This document shows, one piece after another, positions 4,498-23,929 of a stretch of 43,784 nt of DNA (positions are counted from its first letter, which is position 1; every line of letters begins with the position of its first letter). Source of the stretch: Deltaproteobacteria bacterium (lineage in GTDB: Bacteria; Desulfobacterota; Syntrophia; Syntrophales; Smithellaceae). The position numbers and the translations under genes were made by a program. The stretch lies in NCBI GenBank assembly GCA_012729055.1, contig JAAYDW010000002.1:1-43784 (forward strand), given 5' to 3'. The notes beneath the pieces were generated by a model. The model saw only the letters and a program-made list of their open reading frames with translations. It made no database searches and was not told where the DNA came from.

Positions 4498-5781
4498 ATG
4501 TACAGCATTCTTTTTGTGGATGACGATAAACCGTTGTTGGAAACGATCCATCACTATTTTGCGGCATACTCCGATGATCTTAGAATTTCGGCGGCTTCCA
4601 ATGGAAAGGATGCCGTTCGGGTTCTGGAAACGATGCCGGTGGATCTGGTTGTCACTGAACTTCTGCTGCCCCAGATGGACGGCGTCGAACTTTTTGCCCA
4701 TATCAAAAAAAATTTTCCCGCAATTCCGATCATCATCATGAGCGGTTTGATTACCGCTGAAATCAAGCATAAATTCTCAAGCCGCAACGGCAGCCCCGCC
4801 TTTTTTACGAAGCCGCTGAACTTTGAGGAGTTGAAAGACGCGGTTTTCAGGAAGTTGCAGGCATCGGACACGGGCTCCATCAGCGGAGTTTCCCTGACGA
4901 GTGTCATGCAATACATCAGTCTGGAGGCAAAGACCTGCGTTATGGCCGCCCGGGTGCAGGGAAAAAGACCGGGCAATATTTATTTCCACAACGGCGAGCC
5001 GTGGGACGCGATCTGGGAGAACTTGCGGGGGAAAGAAGCGGCTGTCGAAATTATCAGCTGGGAAAAAGCCGAGATCAGTTTCCAAAGAATTCCCCCCACT
5101 GGGGTCAAGAGAATCATCAGAAATGAACTCATCAGCCTGATCGTCGAAGCCGTGCAATCTCGCGACGGAACAGTTGCGAAAGAAAAACCCGTCGGAGCCG
5201 GCGACACCGAAGCAGCGGAGGCCGCGTTACCCGCCCTGGAAACAGCGGCCGTAAATGCACCGAGCCTTCCCGATGAAGCCGTTTTCCGGGCTTTCCAGCC
5301 GGCGAATCATTCCGAAGAGAAGACTGTTATTCCGTGCGACGGCGATCCCCTGTCACCGGAAGAGCAGGAGGTGGAAAACGGCGCTTCCCCAAGTCCCGTC
5401 TCGGCGTTTGAGACGTTGTCGGGATTTCTCACGATACCGGGCGTAGAGGCCGTCCTGCTGGTCGGAGAAGACGGCGCCGTTGCCCGGTCCTCGGCCCGGT
5501 CCTGCGGTATCGATATGAATCATGCCGGCGTCTCCTCGGCTCAGATATGGAACGGCCTGGCGAAAATAGGGGGAGACCTCGGCATCTGCGGCTTTCAGTC
5601 TCTGATGCTCGAATCCGACGACGCCGTGATCGTCGGCGCGCCGGTGAAAGACAATTTGCTTGTCATCCTGGCCAGGGATGCCCGGAAACTGGGCCTGATC
5701 AGACTGCGCATCAAAAAGAAAAAATCCGTGCTGGAAGAAGAAATTGAAAATCAACCGGATCAGGCCGCTTTTTCAACCTAG
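4498..5781 (+). CDS. receiver (degenerate)-PATAN/DUF4388-roadblock/LC7 three-domain protein
   Basis: 427 residues starting at ATG 4498, with GGAG seven bases upstream. Residues 1-120 form a receiver domain: acidic triad D8-D9-D10, MSGL at the switch Ser position, and the conserved Lys in FFTKPL. At the phospho-acceptor position the protein has Glu54 (VDLVVTELLLPQMDG) where Asp is expected, so ordinary phosphorylation should not occur and Glu may mimic the phosphorylated state. Residues about 125-205 match a PATAN/DUF4388 domain (SGVSLTSVMQYI, GNIYFHNGEPWDA). A Glu/Ala-rich linker follows. Residues about 300-415 are roadblock/LC7 (MglB-like): IPGVEAVLLVGEDGAV to KDNLLVILARDARKLGLIRL. Roadblock domains normally dimerise and act on or scaffold Ras-like GTPases. 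First gene of a run reaching 9207; the roadblock domain resembles the protein at 7001. Confidence 0.85.
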   Translation: MYSILFVDDDKPLLETIHHYFAAYSDDLRISAASNGKDAVRVLETMPVDLVVTELLLPQMDGVELFAHIKKNFPAIPIIIMSGLITAEIKHKFSSRNGSPAFFTKPLNFEELKDAVFRKLQASDTGSISGVSLTSVMQYISLEAKTCVMAARVQGKRPGNIYFHNGEPWDAIWENLRGKEAAVEIISWEKAEISFQRIPPTGVKRIIRNELISLIVEAVQSRDGTVAKEKPVGAGDTEAAEAALPALETAAVNAPSLPDEAVFRAFQPANHSEEKTVIPCDGDPLSPEEQEVENGASPSPVSAFETLSGFLTIPGVEAVLLVGEDGAVARSSARSCGIDMNHAGVSSAQIWNGLAKIGGDLGICGFQSLMLESDDAVIVGAPVKDNLLVILARDARKLGLIRLRIKKKKSVLEEEIENQPDQAAFST

Positions 5782-5816
5782 ACCGACATTTACTTCAAAT
5801 GAAAGGAGATTGGATA

Positions 5817-6332
5817 ATGGCGCTGAAATTGGAGTTCACGTTCGATGACAAAACCTACAGGCGTTACATGAACGGTTTCGTGACGGTCATGCATTGCCAC
5901 CATTACATGTCGCTGCTCAGCAAGCTGGCAATCGATTTCGACGATATCGGAGGCGCTCGGATTCTATGCGAATCCGTTGAGGATTCCATTCGTCCGATGA
6001 TCGACGATTATTGCGCGAAAAATAGCATTGCCTCGTTTGAAGACAAGCTGGATGTGGGCAGGCAATACTACTCGGCCATGGGCATGGGAGTGATGAAGAT
6101 TTCCGGAAATCCGGGCCAGGGAGAAGTGACGCTGACCCGTTCTCATGTGGATCAGGGATGGATGAAAAAATGGGGACAGCATACCGTTCCGGTCAATCAT
6201 TGGACCCGGGGGTATATTGCCGCCATGTTTGCCGCGGCGGCCGGCAAGCCGCCCAGGAGCTATGAGATCGCGGAAACGGCAAGCATGGTGATGGGCCAAC
6301 CGACGAGCGTCTTTACCGTAAAATCCAGATAG
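5817..6332 (+). CDS. V4R-like (hydrocarbon/ligand-binding fold) protein
   Basis: 171 residues; ATG 5817 is chosen because AAAGGAG stands about 10 bases upstream, rather than the in-frame ATG at 5799. The C-terminal half has the V4R/4-vinyl-reductase pattern: a long amphipathic helix, a glycine-rich turn (MGMGVMKISGNPG), a beta strand, then RGYIAAMFAAAAGKPPRSYEIAE and MVMGQPTSVFTV. The Cys residues that mark many V4R domains in this last part are absent (VNHWTRG, GQPTSVF). The N-terminus carries an unusual His-rich spot (MHCHHYMSLLSK, residues 25-36) that could bind metal or haem. V4R proteins act as small-molecule binding sensor domains. It is 35 bases downstream of the receiver-roadblock gene and 14 bases before its likely paralogue at 6347. 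The family call is by pattern recognition and moderate. Confidence 0.6.
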   Translation: MALKLEFTFDDKTYRRYMNGFVTVMHCHHYMSLLSKLAIDFDDIGGARILCESVEDSIRPMIDDYCAKNSIASFEDKLDVGRQYYSAMGMGVMKISGNPGQGEVTLTRSHVDQGWMKKWGQHTVPVNHWTRGYIAAMFAAAAGKPPRSYEIAETASMVMGQPTSVFTVKSR

Positions 6333-6346
6333 AAAGGACACAAGCA

Positions 6347-6925
6347 ATGACTGTTCAGCGAGATGTGGTAGTAAAACAACTGGCGGAAATTCAGGCGCAG
6401 GCCGATGAAGAGGGATTGATTCCGGCATATAATGTCCTGGTAAATATGCTTCCGGTGACTTTCTGGAACACCTTTACCAAGAGAATGATGGACGCGGTCC
6501 CCGCGGAGAAGCGCGAGAAGCTCGAAGCGGAGCTGGTGAACTGCGCACTGGAATGCGGATACAATACGGGCTACGGCATTATCACGTCCGACGAATTCAA
6601 GTCGGTCGTGGAACCCATGATCACCGAGGGTGCCAAGGATGTTCTGCGCGGCGCTTACGCGGTCTTTACCGCGTGGGGGTGGGCGAAATCCGGCATCGTT
6701 CAGATTAAAGAGGGAGAGCGGATGGTCGTCCGGGCGCCGGACTATTACGAGGCGGATATCGCGTCCGGATACAAGAGCGGCTTCATGATCCGGGGGGTCA
6801 GCTCGGCGTTTTTCGATCTGGCTTACGGAAAACCCTATCCCGACGGCCTGAAAACGTTCGTGTGTGTACAGACAGCGGGAATCGAAGTCGGCGATCCTTT
6901 CGGCGAATTTGTCGTTACCCGGTAA
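6347..6925 (+). CDS. second V4R-like protein, probable diverged partner of the 5817 product
   Basis: 192 residues from ATG 6347 with AGAAAGGACA upstream. The architecture parallels the preceding gene: helical N-terminus (QLAEIQAQADEEGLIPAYNVL), a stretch rich in helices up to residue 110, then beta-rich VQIKEGERMVVRAPDYYEADIA and a C-terminal GVSSAFFDLAYGKPYPDG with FVCVQTAGIEVGDPFGEFVV, which follows the V4R order. Sequence identity to the 5817 product looks low, so a heterodimer of two specialised subunits is an attractive but untested idea. No signal peptide and no membrane helix, so it is cytoplasmic. The ligand is unknown. The tight spacing (14 bases) indicates one transcript with 5817. 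Confidence 0.55.
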   Translation: MTVQRDVVVKQLAEIQAQADEEGLIPAYNVLVNMLPVTFWNTFTKRMMDAVPAEKREKLEAELVNCALECGYNTGYGIITSDEFKSVVEPMITEGAKDVLRGAYAVFTAWGWAKSGIVQIKEGERMVVRAPDYYEADIASGYKSGFMIRGVSSAFFDLAYGKPYPDGLKTFVCVQTAGIEVGDPFGEFVVTR

Positions 6926-7000
6926 GACGCCCGGGCGAAGCGGATTTGACCAGGCAAGACACATGAAAAAAATACACTGAGCAATGAAAAGGAGCAAGCT

Positions 7001-7363
7001 ATGGCAGACAACAGAACAACCACGCAAATCCTTCAGGAAATGCTGGAAGTGCCCGGGATCAAGGCGATCCTCATCGTCGGTAAGGACGGTTTCGTTATCG
7101 AGGCGGCCGGAGCGTTCGGCAAAACGGATCTGGACAACGTCGGAGCCTCGGTGGCGACGGTCATTCTCGGTACAGACAAGATGTCGGAAGAGCTGAAAAT
7201 TCAAGCATTCAACTCCCTTACGTTCGAGGCGGCCGATGCCATGATCATTTGCGTGCCCATCGGAGATGCGCTGCTGGTCCTTTTGGCGCCCGACAACAAA
7301 ACGCTGGGCATGATTCGCCTGCAGGTCAAGAAAGTCGTTCCCGCGCTGGAGAAGTTCTTTTGA
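7001..7363 (+). CDS. stand-alone roadblock/LC7 domain protein
   Basis: 120 residues from ATG 7001 behind AAAAGGAG. The whole chain is a single roadblock/LC7 domain: helix (TTQILQEMLEVPGIKAI), strand (LIVGKDGFVIEAAG), a long helix (NVGASVATVILGTDKMSEEL), strands (FEAADAMIICVPIGDALLVLLAP) and a final helix (NKTLGMIRLQVKKVVPALEKF). It closely resembles the C-terminal domain of the 4498 product (shared LGxIRLxxKK), suggesting duplication or homo/heterodimer formation between the two. Roadblock proteins of the MglB type stimulate GTP hydrolysis by, or anchor, a small Ras-like GTPase; none is encoded in this window. The last codons overlap the TTG start of the aminotransferase gene, implying translational coupling. 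Confidence 0.85.
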   Translation: MADNRTTTQILQEMLEVPGIKAILIVGKDGFVIEAAGAFGKTDLDNVGASVATVILGTDKMSEELKIQAFNSLTFEAADAMIICVPIGDALLVLLAPDNKTLGMIRLQVKKVVPALEKFF

Positions 7364-8493
7364 TTTATTTCAACAATGCGGCAACCAGCTATCCCAAACT
7401 GGAGGGGACGGCGGAGGCGATGGCAAAGTGTCTCATCGAACCGCCGTCCAACCTCTATCGCGAGGATGTGACGCAACCGTCGACCATCGACCGTTGCCGG
7501 GAAAAAATCGCCGGGCTGTTTCACTTTTCGGATCCGTCGCGGGTCGTCTTTTGCTCGGGGGCCACGGAGGCTTTAAATATTGCCATAAACGGTCTGGCTC
7601 GGCCGCGAAGCCGCGTCATTACAACGACACGCGAACACAACGCCGTTTTGCGTCCGCTGTATTATCTCCGCCGGTCGGGAGACGTTCAGGTGGATCTGGT
7701 GTCCTGTCCTCCTCCCGGCATTCTGGACGGCAATCGATTTGAAAACACTCTTACCCGGGAGACAAGCCTGGCCGTCGTGAACCACATCTCCAATGTGACC
7801 GGCGCTGAAGCGGATATTGCCGCAATCTACTCACTTTGCGAAGCCCGCGGCATTCCTCTGATCGTTGACGCCTCGCAATCCGCGGGGGCCGTCGATATTG
7901 ATTTTTCGTCCATGCCGCTTGCGGCTCTCGCTTTTACCGGCCATAAAGCGCTCCTGGGGCCCAAAGGCGTGGGAGGGCTGATCGTGGGCAGGGAGCTCGA
8001 CCTTCGCGTCTGGAAGTCCGGCGGGACGGGTATTCGCAGCGACCTGGAATTCATGCCCGACGCCTGGCCGATCAAGTATGAAGCGGGAACGCGAAACGAG
8101 CCGGGGATTGCGGGGCTTGCTCACTCCCTCGGCGGCATTCTCGCCCGGGGTCTTTTGTCCGTTGAAAAACAAAAAATGGGCCTCACAAGCCATCTGGTGG
8201 AGGAACTGGGAAAACTCGGCGTCGTCGCCGTGTATTCGGAGCGGCCGGAAAAGAATCGCAGCGGGATTGTTTGTTTCAATATCGATCGCTGGCCGGCGGC
8301 GGATATCGGATATGTGTTGAAGGACGTCTTCGGCATCCGGGTGCGGACGGGGCTTCATTGCGCGCCGCTGATGCACAGGGAACTGGGAACATTTCCCGAC
8401 GGCGCAATACGGATCAGTTTTTCCGCTTCCAACCACCATGACGAAGTGGATGAACTGCTGCGGGCGTTGAAAACCATAGTGGGGCGAACGTGA
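7360..8493 (+). CDS. class V aminotransferase, cysteine-desulfurase-like (am_tr_V_EGG type)
   Basis: 377 residues. The start is TTG 7360, overlapping the stop of the roadblock gene, with GGAG at 7348-7351 spaced eight bases; the resulting N-terminus LIYFNNAATSYPK aligns with the usual start of this PLP-dependent family. Visible motifs: SGATEALNIAING (cofactor binding), TTREHNAVLRPL (His stacking on PLP), VDASQSAGAV (Asp to the pyridine nitrogen), FTGHKALLGPKG (Schiff-base Lys) and RVRTGLHCAPLMHRELG, which holds the Cys expected to carry persulfide in desulfurases. All catalytic residues are intact. The members of this branch are annotated as cysteine desulfurase family proteins but mostly lack an assigned role. 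Its translational coupling to roadblock and V4R proteins rather than to isc/suf genes suggests a dedicated sulfur-transfer or PLP reaction in the module. Confidence 0.85.
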   Translation: MIYFNNAATSYPKLEGTAEAMAKCLIEPPSNLYREDVTQPSTIDRCREKIAGLFHFSDPSRVVFCSGATEALNIAINGLARPRSRVITTTREHNAVLRPLYYLRRSGDVQVDLVSCPPPGILDGNRFENTLTRETSLAVVNHISNVTGAEADIAAIYSLCEARGIPLIVDASQSAGAVDIDFSSMPLAALAFTGHKALLGPKGVGGLIVGRELDLRVWKSGGTGIRSDLEFMPDAWPIKYEAGTRNEPGIAGLAHSLGGILARGLLSVEKQKMGLTSHLVEELGKLGVVAVYSERPEKNRSGIVCFNIDRWPAADIGYVLKDVFGIRVRTGLHCAPLMHRELGTFPDGAIRISFSASNHHDEVDELLRALKTIVGRT

Positions 8494-8786
8494 AAGTGCT
8501 GGAAACAAGAGTTGTTGAAGAGTGCCTCGATGGGATCGTCATCCGCGAAGTTCTGTTCGACGGGCGCATCGGGGCGAACTTCATTAAAAAACTTGAAATA
8601 CTCGGAACACTGGAGTACTTTCCTCACTTTCCGAAACCTTTTTTTCGGGTGCAACAAAGCGGAAAATATATTATAAAAGGCGTCGAAGGAAATGAAACCT
8701 GCCGGATCTTTTATGTCAACTATTCCGAGGAGATTCAGCAGTTGATTTACCGAACTTTCCAGACGGTTTCACAGGAAGGGACCTGA
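8490..8786 (+). CDS. small uncharacterised protein coupled to the aminotransferase
   Basis: 98 residues from GTG 8490, sharing a four-base GTGA overlap with the aminotransferase stop. The sequence is mixed alpha/beta with many aromatic residues (LEYFPHFPKPFFRV, residues about 41-54) and two Cys (C12, C71). The strand KYIIKGVEGNETCRIFYV resembles a small beta-sheet core, and the C-terminus is helical (SEEIQQLIYRTF). I do not recognise the family. The overlap points to a subunit or acceptor working with the upstream PLP enzyme; the two Cys would be testable sulfur acceptors, but that is speculation. Confidence 0.65.
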   Translation: MKVLETRVVEECLDGIVIREVLFDGRIGANFIKKLEILGTLEYFPHFPKPFFRVQQSGKYIIKGVEGNETCRIFYVNYSEEIQQLIYRTFQTVSQEGT

Positions 8787-8803
8787 TCATGGCGAGAGGG
8801 TTT

Positions 8804-8828
8804 CTTCCTTCCTGCAGAAAGAAGGAAG
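8804..8828 (+). promoter_or_regulatory. hairpin overlapping the ribosome binding site of the next gene
   Basis: CTTCCTTC (8804-8811) is complementary to GAAGGAAG (8821-8828) with a nine-base loop. The 3' arm contains the purine-rich ribosome binding site for ATG 8836, so folding would hide it. Confidence 0.4.
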
Positions 8829-8835
8829 GTGGCCT

Positions 8836-9207
8836 ATGCTGAAGCTGCATACCGTTCTCCAATCTCTGGCGTTGGAATTGCCGGGCTTTGCCGCAGCGGG
8901 GATTGTTCTGATCGAGGACGGCATTCCGGTCGCGGCGCTCGGGAAGGGTCCGGAAATCGATCCGACCGTGATCGCCGCTTATTTGACCGGCATGGTTCAG
9001 TCCAAGATGAAGGCCGCTCCATTTGTCGACGAGCACCCGTCCGTCGAGGACATCCTGATTTCCCGGGACGACGGCTACTATTTCATCCGGTTGATCCCCG
9101 AAAAGCCTTATTTCATCTTTGTCGCGGCGGGACGGAATGAGTGGCCGGGCAGGATCAGGCTGGTTGTGGAGGCCTACCAGAAGAGCATCACCGAAAATAT
9201 GCGTTAA
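8836..9207 (+). CDS. roadblock/LC7-like protein (diverged)
   Basis: 123 residues from ATG 8836, with GGAAGG about seven bases upstream. The order of elements matches a roadblock fold: helix (LHTVLQSLALELPGFAAAG), strand (IVLIEDGIPVAALG), helix (TVIAAYLTGMVQSKMKAA), strands (VEDILISRDDGYYFIRLIP and YFIFVAAG) and a terminal helix (IRLVVEAYQKSITENM). The similarity to the 7001 product is structural rather than close, so this is a more diverged copy. It ends the run of same-strand genes beginning at 4498; the 49-base gap before it is the largest since 7001 and holds the hairpin at 8804-8828. Its likely role is a dimerisation partner for the other two roadblock domains. Confidence 0.65.
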   Translation: MLKLHTVLQSLALELPGFAAAGIVLIEDGIPVAALGKGPEIDPTVIAAYLTGMVQSKMKAAPFVDEHPSVEDILISRDDGYYFIRLIPEKPYFIFVAAGRNEWPGRIRLVVEAYQKSITENMR

Positions 9208-9492: not shown

Positions 9493-9657
9493 TGCTCTGA
9501 GCATCTTTTGCCGATTATGCGCGGGCGCGGACAGCTGACGGTTTGAATAAAATCTTTGTCGTCCGGTCGCCCTTTCGGAAGAATTGCCGGGAGAAGTTCA
9601 TAATTGTCGCAGCGCAGGTGTTTTTTTCAGGGCAACGCAAAAAACAAGGAGAAGCTT

Positions 9658-11301
9658 ATGCCCGAAAAAAATTATCTTGCAGGAGAACCTTACGCGTACC
9701 CGTTAATCATCAAGAAACTTTTGAACACCCCTCTGATCTATGCGCCGGACCAGGAGATCGTCTACCGGGACGAATCCCGCTACACGTATCGGACATTGAA
9801 TGAACGGATTTTCCGTCTGGCCAATGTGTTGGCTGATCTGGGCGTCCTGCAGGGGGACACGGTCGCCGTCTTCGATTATGACAGCCACCGCTATCTGGAA
9901 GGATTTTTCGCCATTCCGATGATCGGCGCGGTTTTGCAGACCGTCAACTGGCGGCTCTCCGCCGACCAGATCGTTTACACCCTCAACCACGCCCAAGCGA
10001 AGGTCGCCATCGTCAACACCGATTTTCTGCCGATCTTCGCGGAAATCCGCGAGCAGCTGACCACGGTGCGGACCGTCGTTGTCATTGCCGGGGACAAAGC
10101 TGCTCCCGCGGCCACTTTTCCCGTCGCCGGAGAGTATGAAACGCTGATGGCCGCGGCCGCGACAACCTACGACTTTCCCGATCTGGATGAAAACACCCGG
10201 GCCACGACCTTTTACACCACCGGAACGACCGGCCTGCCCAAGGGGGTTCACTACTCACACCGCCAGCTGATGCTGCATACGTTTTCTGTGGCGGTGGCGC
10301 TCGGCTCCTACGCGACGATCGGCCGCTTCCGCTCCGACGACGTTTACATGCCGATCACGCCGATGTTTCACGTGCATGCCTGGGGCCTGCCGTACGTCGC
10401 CACGCTGCTCGGCGCCAAGCAGGTATATCCCGGCAAGTACGAACCGGAAATGCTGCTCAGGCTGGTTGAACGGGAAAAGGTCACTTTTTCGCACTGCGTT
10501 CCGACGGTGCTCCAGATGATTCTGACAAGCCCGCGGGCGAAAAACATCGATCTTGGCGGTTGGAAGGTGATGATCGGCGGATCGCGCCTGACCAAGGGCC
10601 TGGCCAAAACGGCTATGGAGGCGGGCGTCACCGTTTTCACCGGCTACGGCATGTCCGAGACCTGCCCGGTGATCAGCATCGGCGTGCCCAAGCCGGACGG
10701 TTTGGTGAGGGATGAAGATGAAATGCTCGACACCGTGACGCGAACCGGTCTCCCCATTCCCCTGGCGGAAATCCGCGTGGTGGACCCCGACGAGCGGCCC
10801 CTGCCTAACGACGGCGTCTCCTCGGGAGAAGTCGTACTGCGGTCGCCGTGGCTGACGAAGACCTACGTCGACGCACCCGACAAAACAGAAGACCTCTGGC
10901 GCGAGGGCTGGCTGCACACAGGCGACGTCGGTCACGTGGACAACGGCTATCTGCAGATCACCGACCGCATCAAGGATGTGATCAAGAGCGGCGGTGAATG
11001 GGTGTCCTCGCTGGATCTGGAGAATATGATCGGCCAGCACGAGGCGGTTCTGGAATCGGCGGCCATCGGCGTACCGGACGACAAGTGGGGCGAGCGGCCG
11101 CTCATTCTCGTGGTGCTGAAGCCAGAGTATCCAAAGCCGGTCGGCGCGGCGGAGTTCAAAAGCCACATGCAGATCTTTGCCCGACAGGGGCTCCTGCCGA
11201 AGTACGGTGTGCCGGATCGCTACGAAATCGTCGATCAGATCGCCAAGACCGGCATCGGCAAAATCAACAAAAAGTGGCTGAGGGAGCAGTACCGCTCCTG
11301 A
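9658..11301 (+). CDS. acyl-CoA synthetase, medium/long-chain (AlkK-like)
   Basis: 547 residues from ATG 9658, chosen for the strong AAGGAGAAGCTT site; the in-frame ATG at 9604 has no ribosome binding site. ATP-binding motif [17 protein letters not shown] is near residue 186, followed by [16 protein letters not shown], typical of the AlkK-type medium-chain ligases. [12 protein letters not shown] and the hinge [20 protein letters not shown] follow, with [12 protein letters not shown] at the C-terminal domain; the final catalytic Lys lies in [10 protein letters not shown]. It should form acyl-CoA from a free fatty acid with release of AMP and pyrophosphate. It is preceded by its own promoter and followed by a strong hairpin at 11325-11362, so it is probably monocistronic. 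Confidence 0.88.
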
Positions 11302-22267: not shown

Positions 22268-23929
22268 TTATCTTTTTTTTATTCTGGCGATTTCCTCATC
22301 GCGTAAAATTTTTCGCAGGATCTTTCCCACGGCGGATTTCGGGAGGCTTTCCCGGAACTCCACCACTTTGGGAACTTTATAGGCGGCCAGTTTCGTCCGG
22401 CAGAATTCCGTTACTTCCTCCGCCGTCAGGGTTGCTCCGGATTTGGCCACCACAAAAGCCTTGACTGTTTCCCCCCGGTATTCATGGGGAACGCCCACCG
22501 TGACCGCCTCGGCGATTTTGGGATGCCCGTAGAGCACTTCGTCCACTTCGCGCGGATAGATGTTGAATCCGCCGGCGATGATCATGTCTTTTTTGCGGTC
22601 GACGATATAAATGTAGCCGTCTTCGTCCGCCTGCCCGATGTCGCCGGTGTGCAGCCAGCCGTCGGTCAGCTGCAGCCGGGTTTCTTCGGGATTGTTCCAG
22701 TAGCCTTTCATGACCGAGGGGCCTTTAATCAGGATTTCACCCGGCTGGCCGGGTTGGACGTCCTGCGTTCCGTTTTCCACGTCCACCAGCCGCACGTCGT
22801 TTTCCATGAGGGGAACGCCGATGGCGCCGGTGCGGCAGGACAGAAGCGGATTGGAAATGCCCAGCGACGCGGTCTCGCTCATGCCCCAGCCCTCACCGTA
22901 GAAAATACCGAGGTCTTTCACTTTCTGGATGAGTTCTGCGGGCATGGGCGCGCCGCCGGAATTGAAAAAACGGAACCGCTGGTCGAGGTTCATTTCTTCC
23001 GCTTTGGGATGATTCACGACCGCCGTGATCATGGTCGGGACGGTCGGAAAGTAGGTGATCTGATCGACGCGCTTGATGATGCCCAGCACTTCGTCGATGT
23101 CAAAACGGGGCACCAGCACCTGTGTGGCCGCGTTGAGCATTCCCCAGTTCATGGCGCAGGTGTTGCCATAGATGTGGAAGTAGGGGAGGATGCCCAGAAC
23201 ATTGCGTTTTTCATAGGGCACAAAGGACGTGATGGAGTTGCCCCACAGCGAACACTGCAGCGCCGCAGCCACCACGTTGCCGTGGGTGAGCAGAGCGCCC
23301 TTGGGGAGTCCCGTTGTTCCGCCGGTGAATTGAATGAGGGCGGCATCGGAGGGGGTGAGGTCAATGCGAGGAATCTGAGTGTCGGAGCAGTCTTCGATGA
23401 GTTCGGAAAAATGATGCCAGCCCTCTTCAAGATCAAGTCCTTTTGCGGTGCTGACGCCCAGACCCGTGATGTAGTCCGTCACGCGCGTTACAACGAGGAC
23501 GGTGTTCAGTTCCCGGGCCAGCGGGCGCATGGTAGGCAGCGCCCCGTCAAAGGTAATCAGCACCCTGACGTTCGTGTTATCCAGCATGAATTTCAGTTCA
23601 TCATGCGTATAAAGCGGGTTCATATTGACGACAATCGCGCCCGCTGAAAGAATCGCGTAGTAGGCGATAAGATACTGAGGGCAGTTGGGCAGGGCAAGCC
23701 CCACACGGTCGCCTTTTTTCACGCCCAACCGGACCAACGCGTTTGCCATGCGCAGGGTCTGCGTGCGCAGCTGCGTGAACGACATTTCCGATCCGTAAAA
23801 ATCCGTTGCGGCCTTGAAAGGGTACTGGGACGCCGCGAGATGGAGCAAATTCTGGACGGGAAAACGGGGAAAACGAATGGTCGTCGGAACGAGGTAGTCG
23901 TAATTCTTCTGCCAGGGTCTAGTTTGCAA
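22268..23929 (-). CDS. fadD: long-chain fatty-acid--CoA ligase, probably sigma-54 controlled
   Basis: 553 residues. No ATG precedes the conserved start, so I use TTG 23929; GGAG stands 12 bases upstream, which is long, and the exact start is uncertain. ATP-binding motif [18 protein letters not shown] is near residue 209, GEGWGMSETASLG near residue 342, hinge TGDIGQADEDGYIYIVDRKKD near residue 434 and the catalytic Lys in LPKSAVGKILRKIL near the end. This is the classical FadD arrangement, making acyl-CoA, AMP and pyrophosphate. The gene is divergent from a sigma-54 activator, and a -24/-12 element lies at 24066-24083, so expression is probably induced by that regulator in response to its ligand. 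Confidence 0.9.
   Translation of the reverse strand: MQTRPWQKNYDYLVPTTIRFPRFPVQNLLHLAASQYPFKAATDFYGSEMSFTQLRTQTLRMANALVRLGVKKGDRVGLALPNCPQYLIAYYAILSAGAIVVNMNPLYTHDELKFMLDNTNVRVLITFDGALPTMRPLARELNTVLVVTRVTDYITGLGVSTAKGLDLEEGWHHFSELIEDCSDTQIPRIDLTPSDAALIQFTGGTTGLPKGALLTHGNVVAAALQCSLWGNSITSFVPYEKRNVLGILPYFHIYGNTCAMNWGMLNAATQVLVPRFDIDEVLGIIKRVDQITYFPTVPTMITAVVNHPKAEEMNLDQRFRFFNSGGAPMPAELIQKVKDLGIFYGEGWGMSETASLGISNPLLSCRTGAIGVPLMENDVRLVDVENGTQDVQPGQPGEILIKGPSVMKGYWNNPEETRLQLTDGWLHTGDIGQADEDGYIYIVDRKKDMIIAGGFNIYPREVDEVLYGHPKIAEAVTVGVPHEYRGETVKAFVVAKSGATLTAEEVTEFCRTKLAAYKVPKVVEFRESLPKSAVGKILRKILRDEEIARIKKR

Follow-up and report, generated by a model that had tools for sequence, protein, structure and literature searches.

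Several described systems resemble parts of a seven-gene cluster that lies in a 43,784-nucleotide stretch of DNA from a Deltaproteobacteria bacterium (assembly GCA_012729055.1, contig JAAYDW010000002.1; hereafter the window). The closest are the phenol-sensor domains of MopR, PoxR and DmpR, whose fold is predicted over the whole of V4Ra, the first of two V4R-type proteins encoded in the cluster, and whose zinc-ligand positions are kept by relatives of the pair. Unlike those sensors, the two V4R proteins of the window are encoded by stand-alone genes, carry no fused output domain, and have lost seven of the eight zinc positions. A second likeness is to loci in which a V4R pair is followed by a PAS histidine kinase: the window has the same V4Ra-V4Rb order, but its pair is followed by a roadblock gene, a desulfurase-like enzyme (AmtrV) and an orphan protein, with no kinase. 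AmtrV and the orphan recall in turn the selenium-type gene set TIGR01977-DUF3343-Sulf_transp/YedE-TusA, in which the same enzyme family precedes a small protein; however, the orphan does not match Se_S_carrier at E<=1, and no transporter or TusA is encoded among the seven genes. For DUF3343, a role in selenium/sulfur trafficking has been proposed (PMC5322559). The TRAPP complex and Asgard V4R/roadblock proteins also combine a V4R fold with roadblock or longin-type proteins, whereas the window's cluster holds no GTPase, gives a weaker structural match to TRAPP, and has a roadblock link that is not conserved. Among open-licence papers, we found none that link V4R or roadblock LC7 proteins with a cysteine desulfurase. 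Our tentative reading of the gene order, which we regard as a reasonable possibility rather than a firm assignment, is that a V4R sensing pair has here acquired a sulfur- or selenium-transfer pair in the place usually taken by a kinase, and that this genome has also gained roadblock adaptors there. The seven genes are as follows.

4498..5781, + strand: receiver-PATAN (DUF4388)-roadblock protein (protein 1), 427 amino acids (aa); three Pfam domains over cut-off
5817..6332, + strand: V4Ra, V4R-fold protein by its AlphaFold2 (AF2) model and the PF02830 matches of its family members, 171 aa
6347..6925, + strand: V4Rb, V4R-like partner by the PF02830 matches of its family members and the match of its family profile to MopR, 192 aa
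7001..7363, + strand: stand-alone roadblock/LC7 protein, 120 aa; Robl_LC7, 46 bits
7360..8493, + strand: AmtrV, putative class V pyridoxal 5'-phosphate (PLP) enzyme of the cysteine desulfurase/selenocysteine lyase kind; Aminotran_5, TIGR01977
8490..8786, + strand: orphan protein with a predicted TBP-like or helix-grip alpha-beta fold (AF2 model), 98 aa
8836..9207, + strand: third, roadblock-like protein, 123 aa; weak profile and phmmer matches

The layout given by an earlier, sequence-only reading of this DNA is real. All seven open reading frames lie on the + strand between 4498 and 9207, and both of the start-stop overlaps were confirmed at their coordinates: the TTG start of AmtrV (7360-7362) overlaps the TGA stop of the roadblock gene (7361-7363), and at 8490-8493 the GTG start of the orphan overlaps the AmtrV stop in the motif GTGA. 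The same reading took the seven genes for one candidate signaling module, which was not borne out, since the full set was not found again in the genomes searched. A conserved seven-gene system was rejected because V4Rb is missing in the relatives searched and roadblocks are missing from the fetched flanks of other V4R-pair loci. Judged by gene content in other genomes, the cluster is three units side by side, namely the V4R pair, AmtrV with the orphan, and the roadblock proteins, of which the first two recur elsewhere.

Taken alone, neither V4Ra nor V4Rb matched the Pfam V4R family (PF02830) at E<=1, and the sister pair, from a genome designated G370, gave no match at E<=0.01. The family was matched at E<=1 by 10 of 12 aligned members of the V4Ra family and by 9 of 12 of the V4Rb family, and two examples that were checked scored 35 and 37 bits against a cut-off of 31. 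The AF2 model of V4Ra (predicted local distance difference test, pLDDT, 89.3) found its best PDB matches in the phenol-sensor domains of MopR, PoxR and DmpR (Z 16-17, 167-168 residues aligned), with MopR itself at Z 16.9, a root-mean-square deviation (rmsd) of 3.2 and 168 residues aligned; TRAPPC3/Bet3-family chains followed at Z 11-12. The V4Rb family profile matched MopR at E 6.3e-6. The V4R assignments made from the window alone hold through the PF02830 matches of the relatives and the V4Ra fold model: V4Ra is, as modeled, a protein of the V4R fold, and V4Rb appears to be V4R-like.

The distribution of the pair was read from samples of 59 relatives, the window's own genome included, and of 395 genomes of the phylum. 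V4Rb was not found in any of the 58 other relatives, 19 of which belong to the same genus, and it occurs in 12 of the 395 phylum genomes, again counting the window's own; V4Ra directly adjoins it in all 11 others. A wider scan of named genomes with a pattern taken from the V4Ra alignment gave 42 loci; this single scan was keyed to an HCH motif and cannot find a V4Ra that lacks it. Together the two sets comprise 53 loci (some contigs appear twice), with V4Ra in all, both genes in 50, and V4Ra without V4Rb in 3. After identical pairs were removed, V4Ra and V4Rb lay on the same strand in all 44 distinct pairs outside the window. By these comparisons, V4Ra-V4Rb is a conserved gene pair.

Gene calls in the fetched loci are simple scripted open reading frames, and neighboring genes were labeled by BLAST against a small set of example proteins, with the labels checked by Pfam on examples for the kinase, the LuxR-type regulator, CobA, URO-D, DsrC, DUF3343, TusA, DsrE, MtrH, TsaD, the receiver-DUF4388-Robl protein, and a GTPase on contig C22 of the window's genome. 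The fetched flanks are not of equal length, and a good many of the contigs are short (that of G370, L014/L028, is 5.4 kb), so absence from a flank is not absence from the genome. With the window included, 40 of 45 distinct loci carry a histidine kinase within 400 bp downstream of the pair, and PAS and kinase domains were confirmed by Pfam at two example loci. These kinase loci often also have a LuxR-type regulator; their records are mostly titled Desulfobacterales, Desulfobacteraceae or Deltaproteobacteria, with some Thermodesulfovibrionales and Nitrospira. One further locus (L023) ends at a contig edge after the pair, which leaves four without a kinase: the window, G370, G172 and L066.

In three of these four, the window, G370 and G172, a class V PLP enzyme and a protein of roughly 100 aa lie downstream of the pair; in L066, a gene of a kinase/pyrophosphorylase family sits where the histidine kinase usually does. 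Relatives of the PLP enzyme were seen in the fetched flanks of 2 of the 44 pair loci outside the window (G370 and G172) and at none of the 40 kinase-bearing loci. The three arrangements differ. In the window, V4Rb is followed by the roadblock gene and AmtrV comes after that. In G370 (contig WFRP01000052.1) the order is V4Ra, V4Rb, a gap of ca. 630 bp, AmtrV, orphan and an MCP gene; the gap (L014, about 1590-2210) bears repeats, is apparently non-coding, and is possibly a mobile or repeat element. G370 is the only other genome found to hold the V4R pair, the enzyme and the orphan together. In G172 (L024, 10744-13981), V4Ra and V4Rb precede the genes of a SufS-like enzyme and a 104-aa protein; these genes lie 2-3 bases apart, save for one short overlap, and a 168-aa protein is encoded directly upstream; neither the 104-aa nor the 168-aa protein has an NCBIfam match. 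The earlier proposal that V4R and roadblock genes co-occur with a desulfurase-type enzyme thus stands in part: the pair with a PLP enzyme recurs in G370 and G172, with no roadblock in the fetched flanks of either. In a tree of the V4R pairs, the window has G370 as its sister (100/100), and G172 is distant on a very long branch. Because G172 lies apart and its enzyme belongs to the SufS-like subfamily, its link to a PLP enzyme suggests a second acquisition.

The pairs were also compared at the positions aligned with C155, E178, C181 and C189 of MopR, which we take to be its zinc ligands. In both the window and G370, V4Ra has N, E, S and S at these positions and V4Rb has G or A, Q, G and G, so that seven of eight are substituted. 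In window numbering, the three zinc cysteines of V4Ra are replaced by N127, S156 and S164, and all four positions are lost in V4Rb (G145, Q175, G178 and G186). In the remaining 43 pairs, V4Ra and V4Rb alike read C, E, C and C, the sole exceptions being two gaps in the contig-end locus L023. Since the G172 pair retains the site despite its PLP enzyme, the loss goes with a TIGR01977-type partner rather than with PLP partners generally. If the link to the enzyme is real, the paired loss of zinc cysteines would mark when the V4R pair was rewired to a sulfur enzyme. A four-cysteine zinc site is described in Thor TRAPPC3, "similarly to PoxR", and a hydrogen bond is said to have replaced the zinc site in TRAPPC3 (PMC10933270).

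AmtrV scored 220 bits against Aminotran_5 and 363.2 bits against TIGR01977, the latter under the cut-off of 377; the two other copies found next to an orphan relative, in G370 and in a genome designated G424, scored 410.2 and 332.4 bits against TIGR01977. A TGHK lysine and a GLHCAPL cysteine, presumably the PLP lysine and the catalytic cysteine, are invariant across the three. With the Aminotran_5 match and this cysteine in place, AmtrV can be kept, as first read, as a probable class V PLP enzyme of the cysteine desulfurase/selenocysteine lyase kind. Among the 27 next-best loci, the gene directly after AmtrV is DUF3343-like in 8, TusA-like in 3, TsaD in 9, and another gene or none in 7; one of these seven (G032) has DsrE next and then DUF3343, and altogether 12 of the 27 have a gene resembling a selenium/sulfur carrier directly after AmtrV. 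The window's genome has a second AmtrV locus (C9), where Pfam confirmed DUF3343 (Se_S_carrier), TusA and a protein of a sulfur-transport family.

The orphan gave no Pfam or NCBIfam match at E<=1, Se_S_carrier (PF11823/DUF3343) included, no sequence relatives in the PDB at E<=10, and none in plasmids or viral contigs. It has three confident members: the window's, one in G370 (38% identical) and one in G424 (22%, E 1.5e-5). In all three the orphan directly follows AmtrV, in three different neighborhoods, which bears out the adjacency noted in the window and points to a pair that travels together. Residues E10, C12, P48, P50, F52, IKGV (62-65) and G67 are invariant in the three sequences. The AF2 model is confident (pLDDT 91.5); its best VIA match was the TATA-binding protein (TBP) of M. 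jannaschii (Z 8.5, rmsd 3.1, 86 residues aligned), followed by another TBP (Z 8.2), spermine synthase (7.6) and a START-domain protein (7.1), and Foldseek returned no match at E<=0.001. The predicted fold reads as TBP-like or helix-grip, from which no function follows. By position, and by no more than that, the orphan is a candidate sulfur or selenium acceptor; if so, it would be a new partner family for desulfurase-like enzymes that are otherwise seen beside several small carriers. Weak matches in G211, G309 and G405 have stop codons inside the match, and no AmtrV-orphan pair was seen around the G309 match or around a second weak match in G424.

The orphan of G424 lies within a TrsS/DVU_155x selenium-type cluster (L077, 5355-12850), named for a radical SAM selenoprotein (NCBIfam), where AmtrV and the orphan relative have a C-GCAxxG gene on one side and TrsS on the other. 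Neither was seen at the other TrsS loci examined. The orphan as a standard part of Trs clusters was rejected: it was absent from 22 TrsS places in other genomes (18 over the family cut-off, 20 fetched with wider flanks), and no AmtrV was seen in the fetched stretches of 21 labeled loci. In the window's own genome, TrsS was not found at E<=1e-100. In the enzyme tree, the AmtrVs of G303 and G261 group with that of G424 with moderate support; both lie beside a DsrC-like gene, and G261 also has a molybdenum hydroxylase and a TrsS-like gene. A single clade of orphan-linked AmtrVs was not shown by this tree, yet it is not rejected either (p-AU, approximately unbiased test, 0.27).

These distributions bear on another account, in which a V4R-roadblock signaling set and a mobile AmtrV-orphan sulfur/selenium cassette became neighbors by chance. 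The cassette occurs once with no V4R nearby, in the G424 Trs cluster, and the orphan is patchy, being present in 1 of 37 genomes of the family of G424 and 1 of 16 of that of G370. V4Rb is equally missing in the 58 other relatives, and the two units are held apart by the ca. 630-bp gap in G370 and by the roadblock gene in the window. Against this, the cassette stands beside a V4R pair twice and G172 offers a third case without a kinase, compared with none among the fetched flanks of 40 kinase-bearing loci; moreover, the zinc site is lost in exactly the two TIGR01977-linked pairs, and two gene junctions of the window's cluster overlap start to stop. We consider a chance neighborhood doubtful, though it must be taken seriously.

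For the reading in which the sulfur- or selenium-transfer pair replaces the kinase, the mechanism would run as follows. V4Ra and V4Rb would come together as a heterodimer whose ligand is hydrophobic and perhaps aromatic. AmtrV would take sulfur from cysteine, or selenium from selenocysteine, onto its GLHCAPL cysteine and hand it to the orphan, probably at Cys12, and ligand binding by the V4R pair would gate or receive this transfer. The receiver-PATAN-roadblock protein and its paralogous stand-alone roadblock probably pair and would tie the unit to phosphorelay or GTPase signaling. Should the link prove real, it would mean that a ligand-sensing pair present in many genomes can be switched over from a kinase to a sulfur-mobilizing enzyme. 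The stronger form of this proposal, that a zinc-free and kinase-less V4R heterodimer gates a desulfurase with a new TBP-fold acceptor, so that sensing is read out as sulfur transfer, mounted here on roadblocks, we think unlikely as a whole.

A number of observations weigh against the kinase-replacement reading. What ties the V4R pair to the enzyme is gene position alone, and even there a roadblock gene comes straight after V4Rb in the window, while repeat-bearing, apparently non-coding DNA separates V4Rb from AmtrV in G370. The G172 enzyme is SufS-like rather than TIGR01977-like, its V4R pair keeps the zinc ligands, and no relationship was detected between its 104-aa protein and the orphan. 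On the V4R tree the PLP link may have had a single origin, so that the independent cases may number just one or two. The orphan-linked AmtrVs do not form a clean clade, requiring two changes on the tree. Fifteen of the 27 next-best AmtrV loci (nine of them with TsaD) lack a carrier-like next gene, and for that reason the orphan's location is not enough to call it a carrier; the match of its fold is of middling quality, and the conservation of Cys12 is seen in three sequences only. The proposed exchange of a kinase for a sulfur or selenium enzyme with loss of the zinc site is thus, as far as gene order and alignment indicate, a matter of two or three loci.

The V4R family takes its name from 4-vinyl reductase (BchJ), a protein of the tetrapyrrole pathway. 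That origin would suit a different use of the fold, in which V4Ra and V4Rb hold a substrate, a small biosynthetic machine of four genes (V4Ra, V4Rb, AmtrV and the orphan) adds sulfur or selenium to the compound or cofactor bound to them, and the roadblocks serve as regulators. That the zinc site went while a sulfur donor was gained suggests a changed use of the V4R fold, and many pair loci lie near genes of the corrinoid/methyltransferase type. In particular, URO-D family genes were seen near 17 of 44 distinct loci and CobA near 6 of 44; V4R-pair or V4Ra loci with these neighbors include L015, L016, L017, L018 and L030, the last of which has V4Ra together with MtrH and a B12-binding protein. 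A further point is an HCHH motif in V4Ra (residues 26-29, window 5892-5903), which begins the first long helix, is distinct from the zinc site, and might bind a metal or cofactor. Its HC is kept in 44 of 45 copies, with one gap, although this conservation is partly a product of selection because the locus scan was keyed to the HCH motif. Set against a substrate role are the absence of any radical SAM protein, ligase or methyltransferase among the seven genes, and the kinase-linked pairs, which look like plain sensors and may detect methylated or methoxylated compounds used via corrinoid methyltransferases. We judge such a role quite improbable.

The roadblock proteins were seen together with V4R in the window only. 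Protein 1 matched Response_reg (68.1 bits), DUF4388/PATAN (38.7 bits) and Robl_LC7 (25.4 bits), all above the Pfam cut-offs, and the stand-alone roadblock scored 46 bits against Robl_LC7 (PF03259, cut-off 23), with PDB matches (E about 1e-4) to MglB and to a Robl_LC7 protein. The third protein had no Pfam match at E<=1; a model made from 11 roadblocks gave it a weak 13.1 bits (hhalign probability 32%), and it reached E 0.025 in phmmer to Rv3364c (PDB). Two of the three roadblock assignments are therefore well founded and the last is weak. The score against the MglB model NF052242 was 31 bits, with a cut-off of 200. The C-terminal roadblock domain of protein 1 and the stand-alone roadblock are 37% identical, and for this reason the two may pair.

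Elsewhere the roadblocks part company with the V4R pair. The flanks fetched for the 44 other V4R-pair loci showed no roadblock domain, the assemblies of G370 (97% complete) and G424 contain no Robl_LC7 match at E<=0.001, and of the three Robl_LC7 matches in G172 none is on the contig that carries its V4R pair. A scaffold of roadblock dimers, which had been proposed as a possible coupling of ligand sensing to sulfur transfer, is therefore not a general part of it. The roadblocks closest to those of the window occur in 17 other phylum genomes; 10 of their loci were examined, and none has V4R or AmtrV, while 4 lie beside a Ras-like GTPase. One locus (L186) has the receiver-DUF4388-roadblock architecture without V4R, all three domains being over cut-off. 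No Ras-like GTPase is encoded among the seven cluster genes; elsewhere in the genome, where a search for an MglA-like gene had been suggested, a Ras/Arf-like GTPase lies on contig C22. There (L025, 28-2507, G000:C22) an unclassified gene, two roadblock-like genes and the GTPase stand in a row; one of the two roadblock-like proteins is Robl_LC7 by Pfam and the other has no match at E<=1e-5. This row is likely a GTPase system of this genome, and the window's roadblocks may be connected to it.

That GTPase, with its roadblock neighbor, also invites comparison with TRAPP: two V4R-fold and two roadblock subunits might form a bacterial TRAPP-like assembly acting on a Ras-like GTPase, with AmtrV and the orphan as bystanders. 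In addition to the TRAPPC3/Bet3-family matches of the V4Ra model and the resemblance of the two roadblocks, a longin heterodimer flanked by TRAPP-domain subunits is described for TRAPP, as is the TRAPPC3 zinc site given over to a hydrogen bond (PMC10933270). We nevertheless regard this assembly as highly improbable, given that the phenol-sensor matches are much stronger than those to TRAPPC3, that no roadblock was detected in the fetched flanks of the other V4R-pair loci or in the G370 assembly, and that no V4R lies beside the 10 examined roadblock relatives.

A foreign origin of the cluster by base composition was rejected, its G+C content of 52-57% falling within the 51-67% of the window with no clear break. 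Promoter-like sites were at chance level (3 found, 3.4 expected), and 12 terminator-like sites were found where 7.3 were expected (standard deviation 2.7). The cluster is flanked on both sides by AMP-binding (acyl-CoA synthetase-like) genes (875-2761 and 9652-11301, Pfam), and a third such gene lies further along the window (22268-23929, Pfam).

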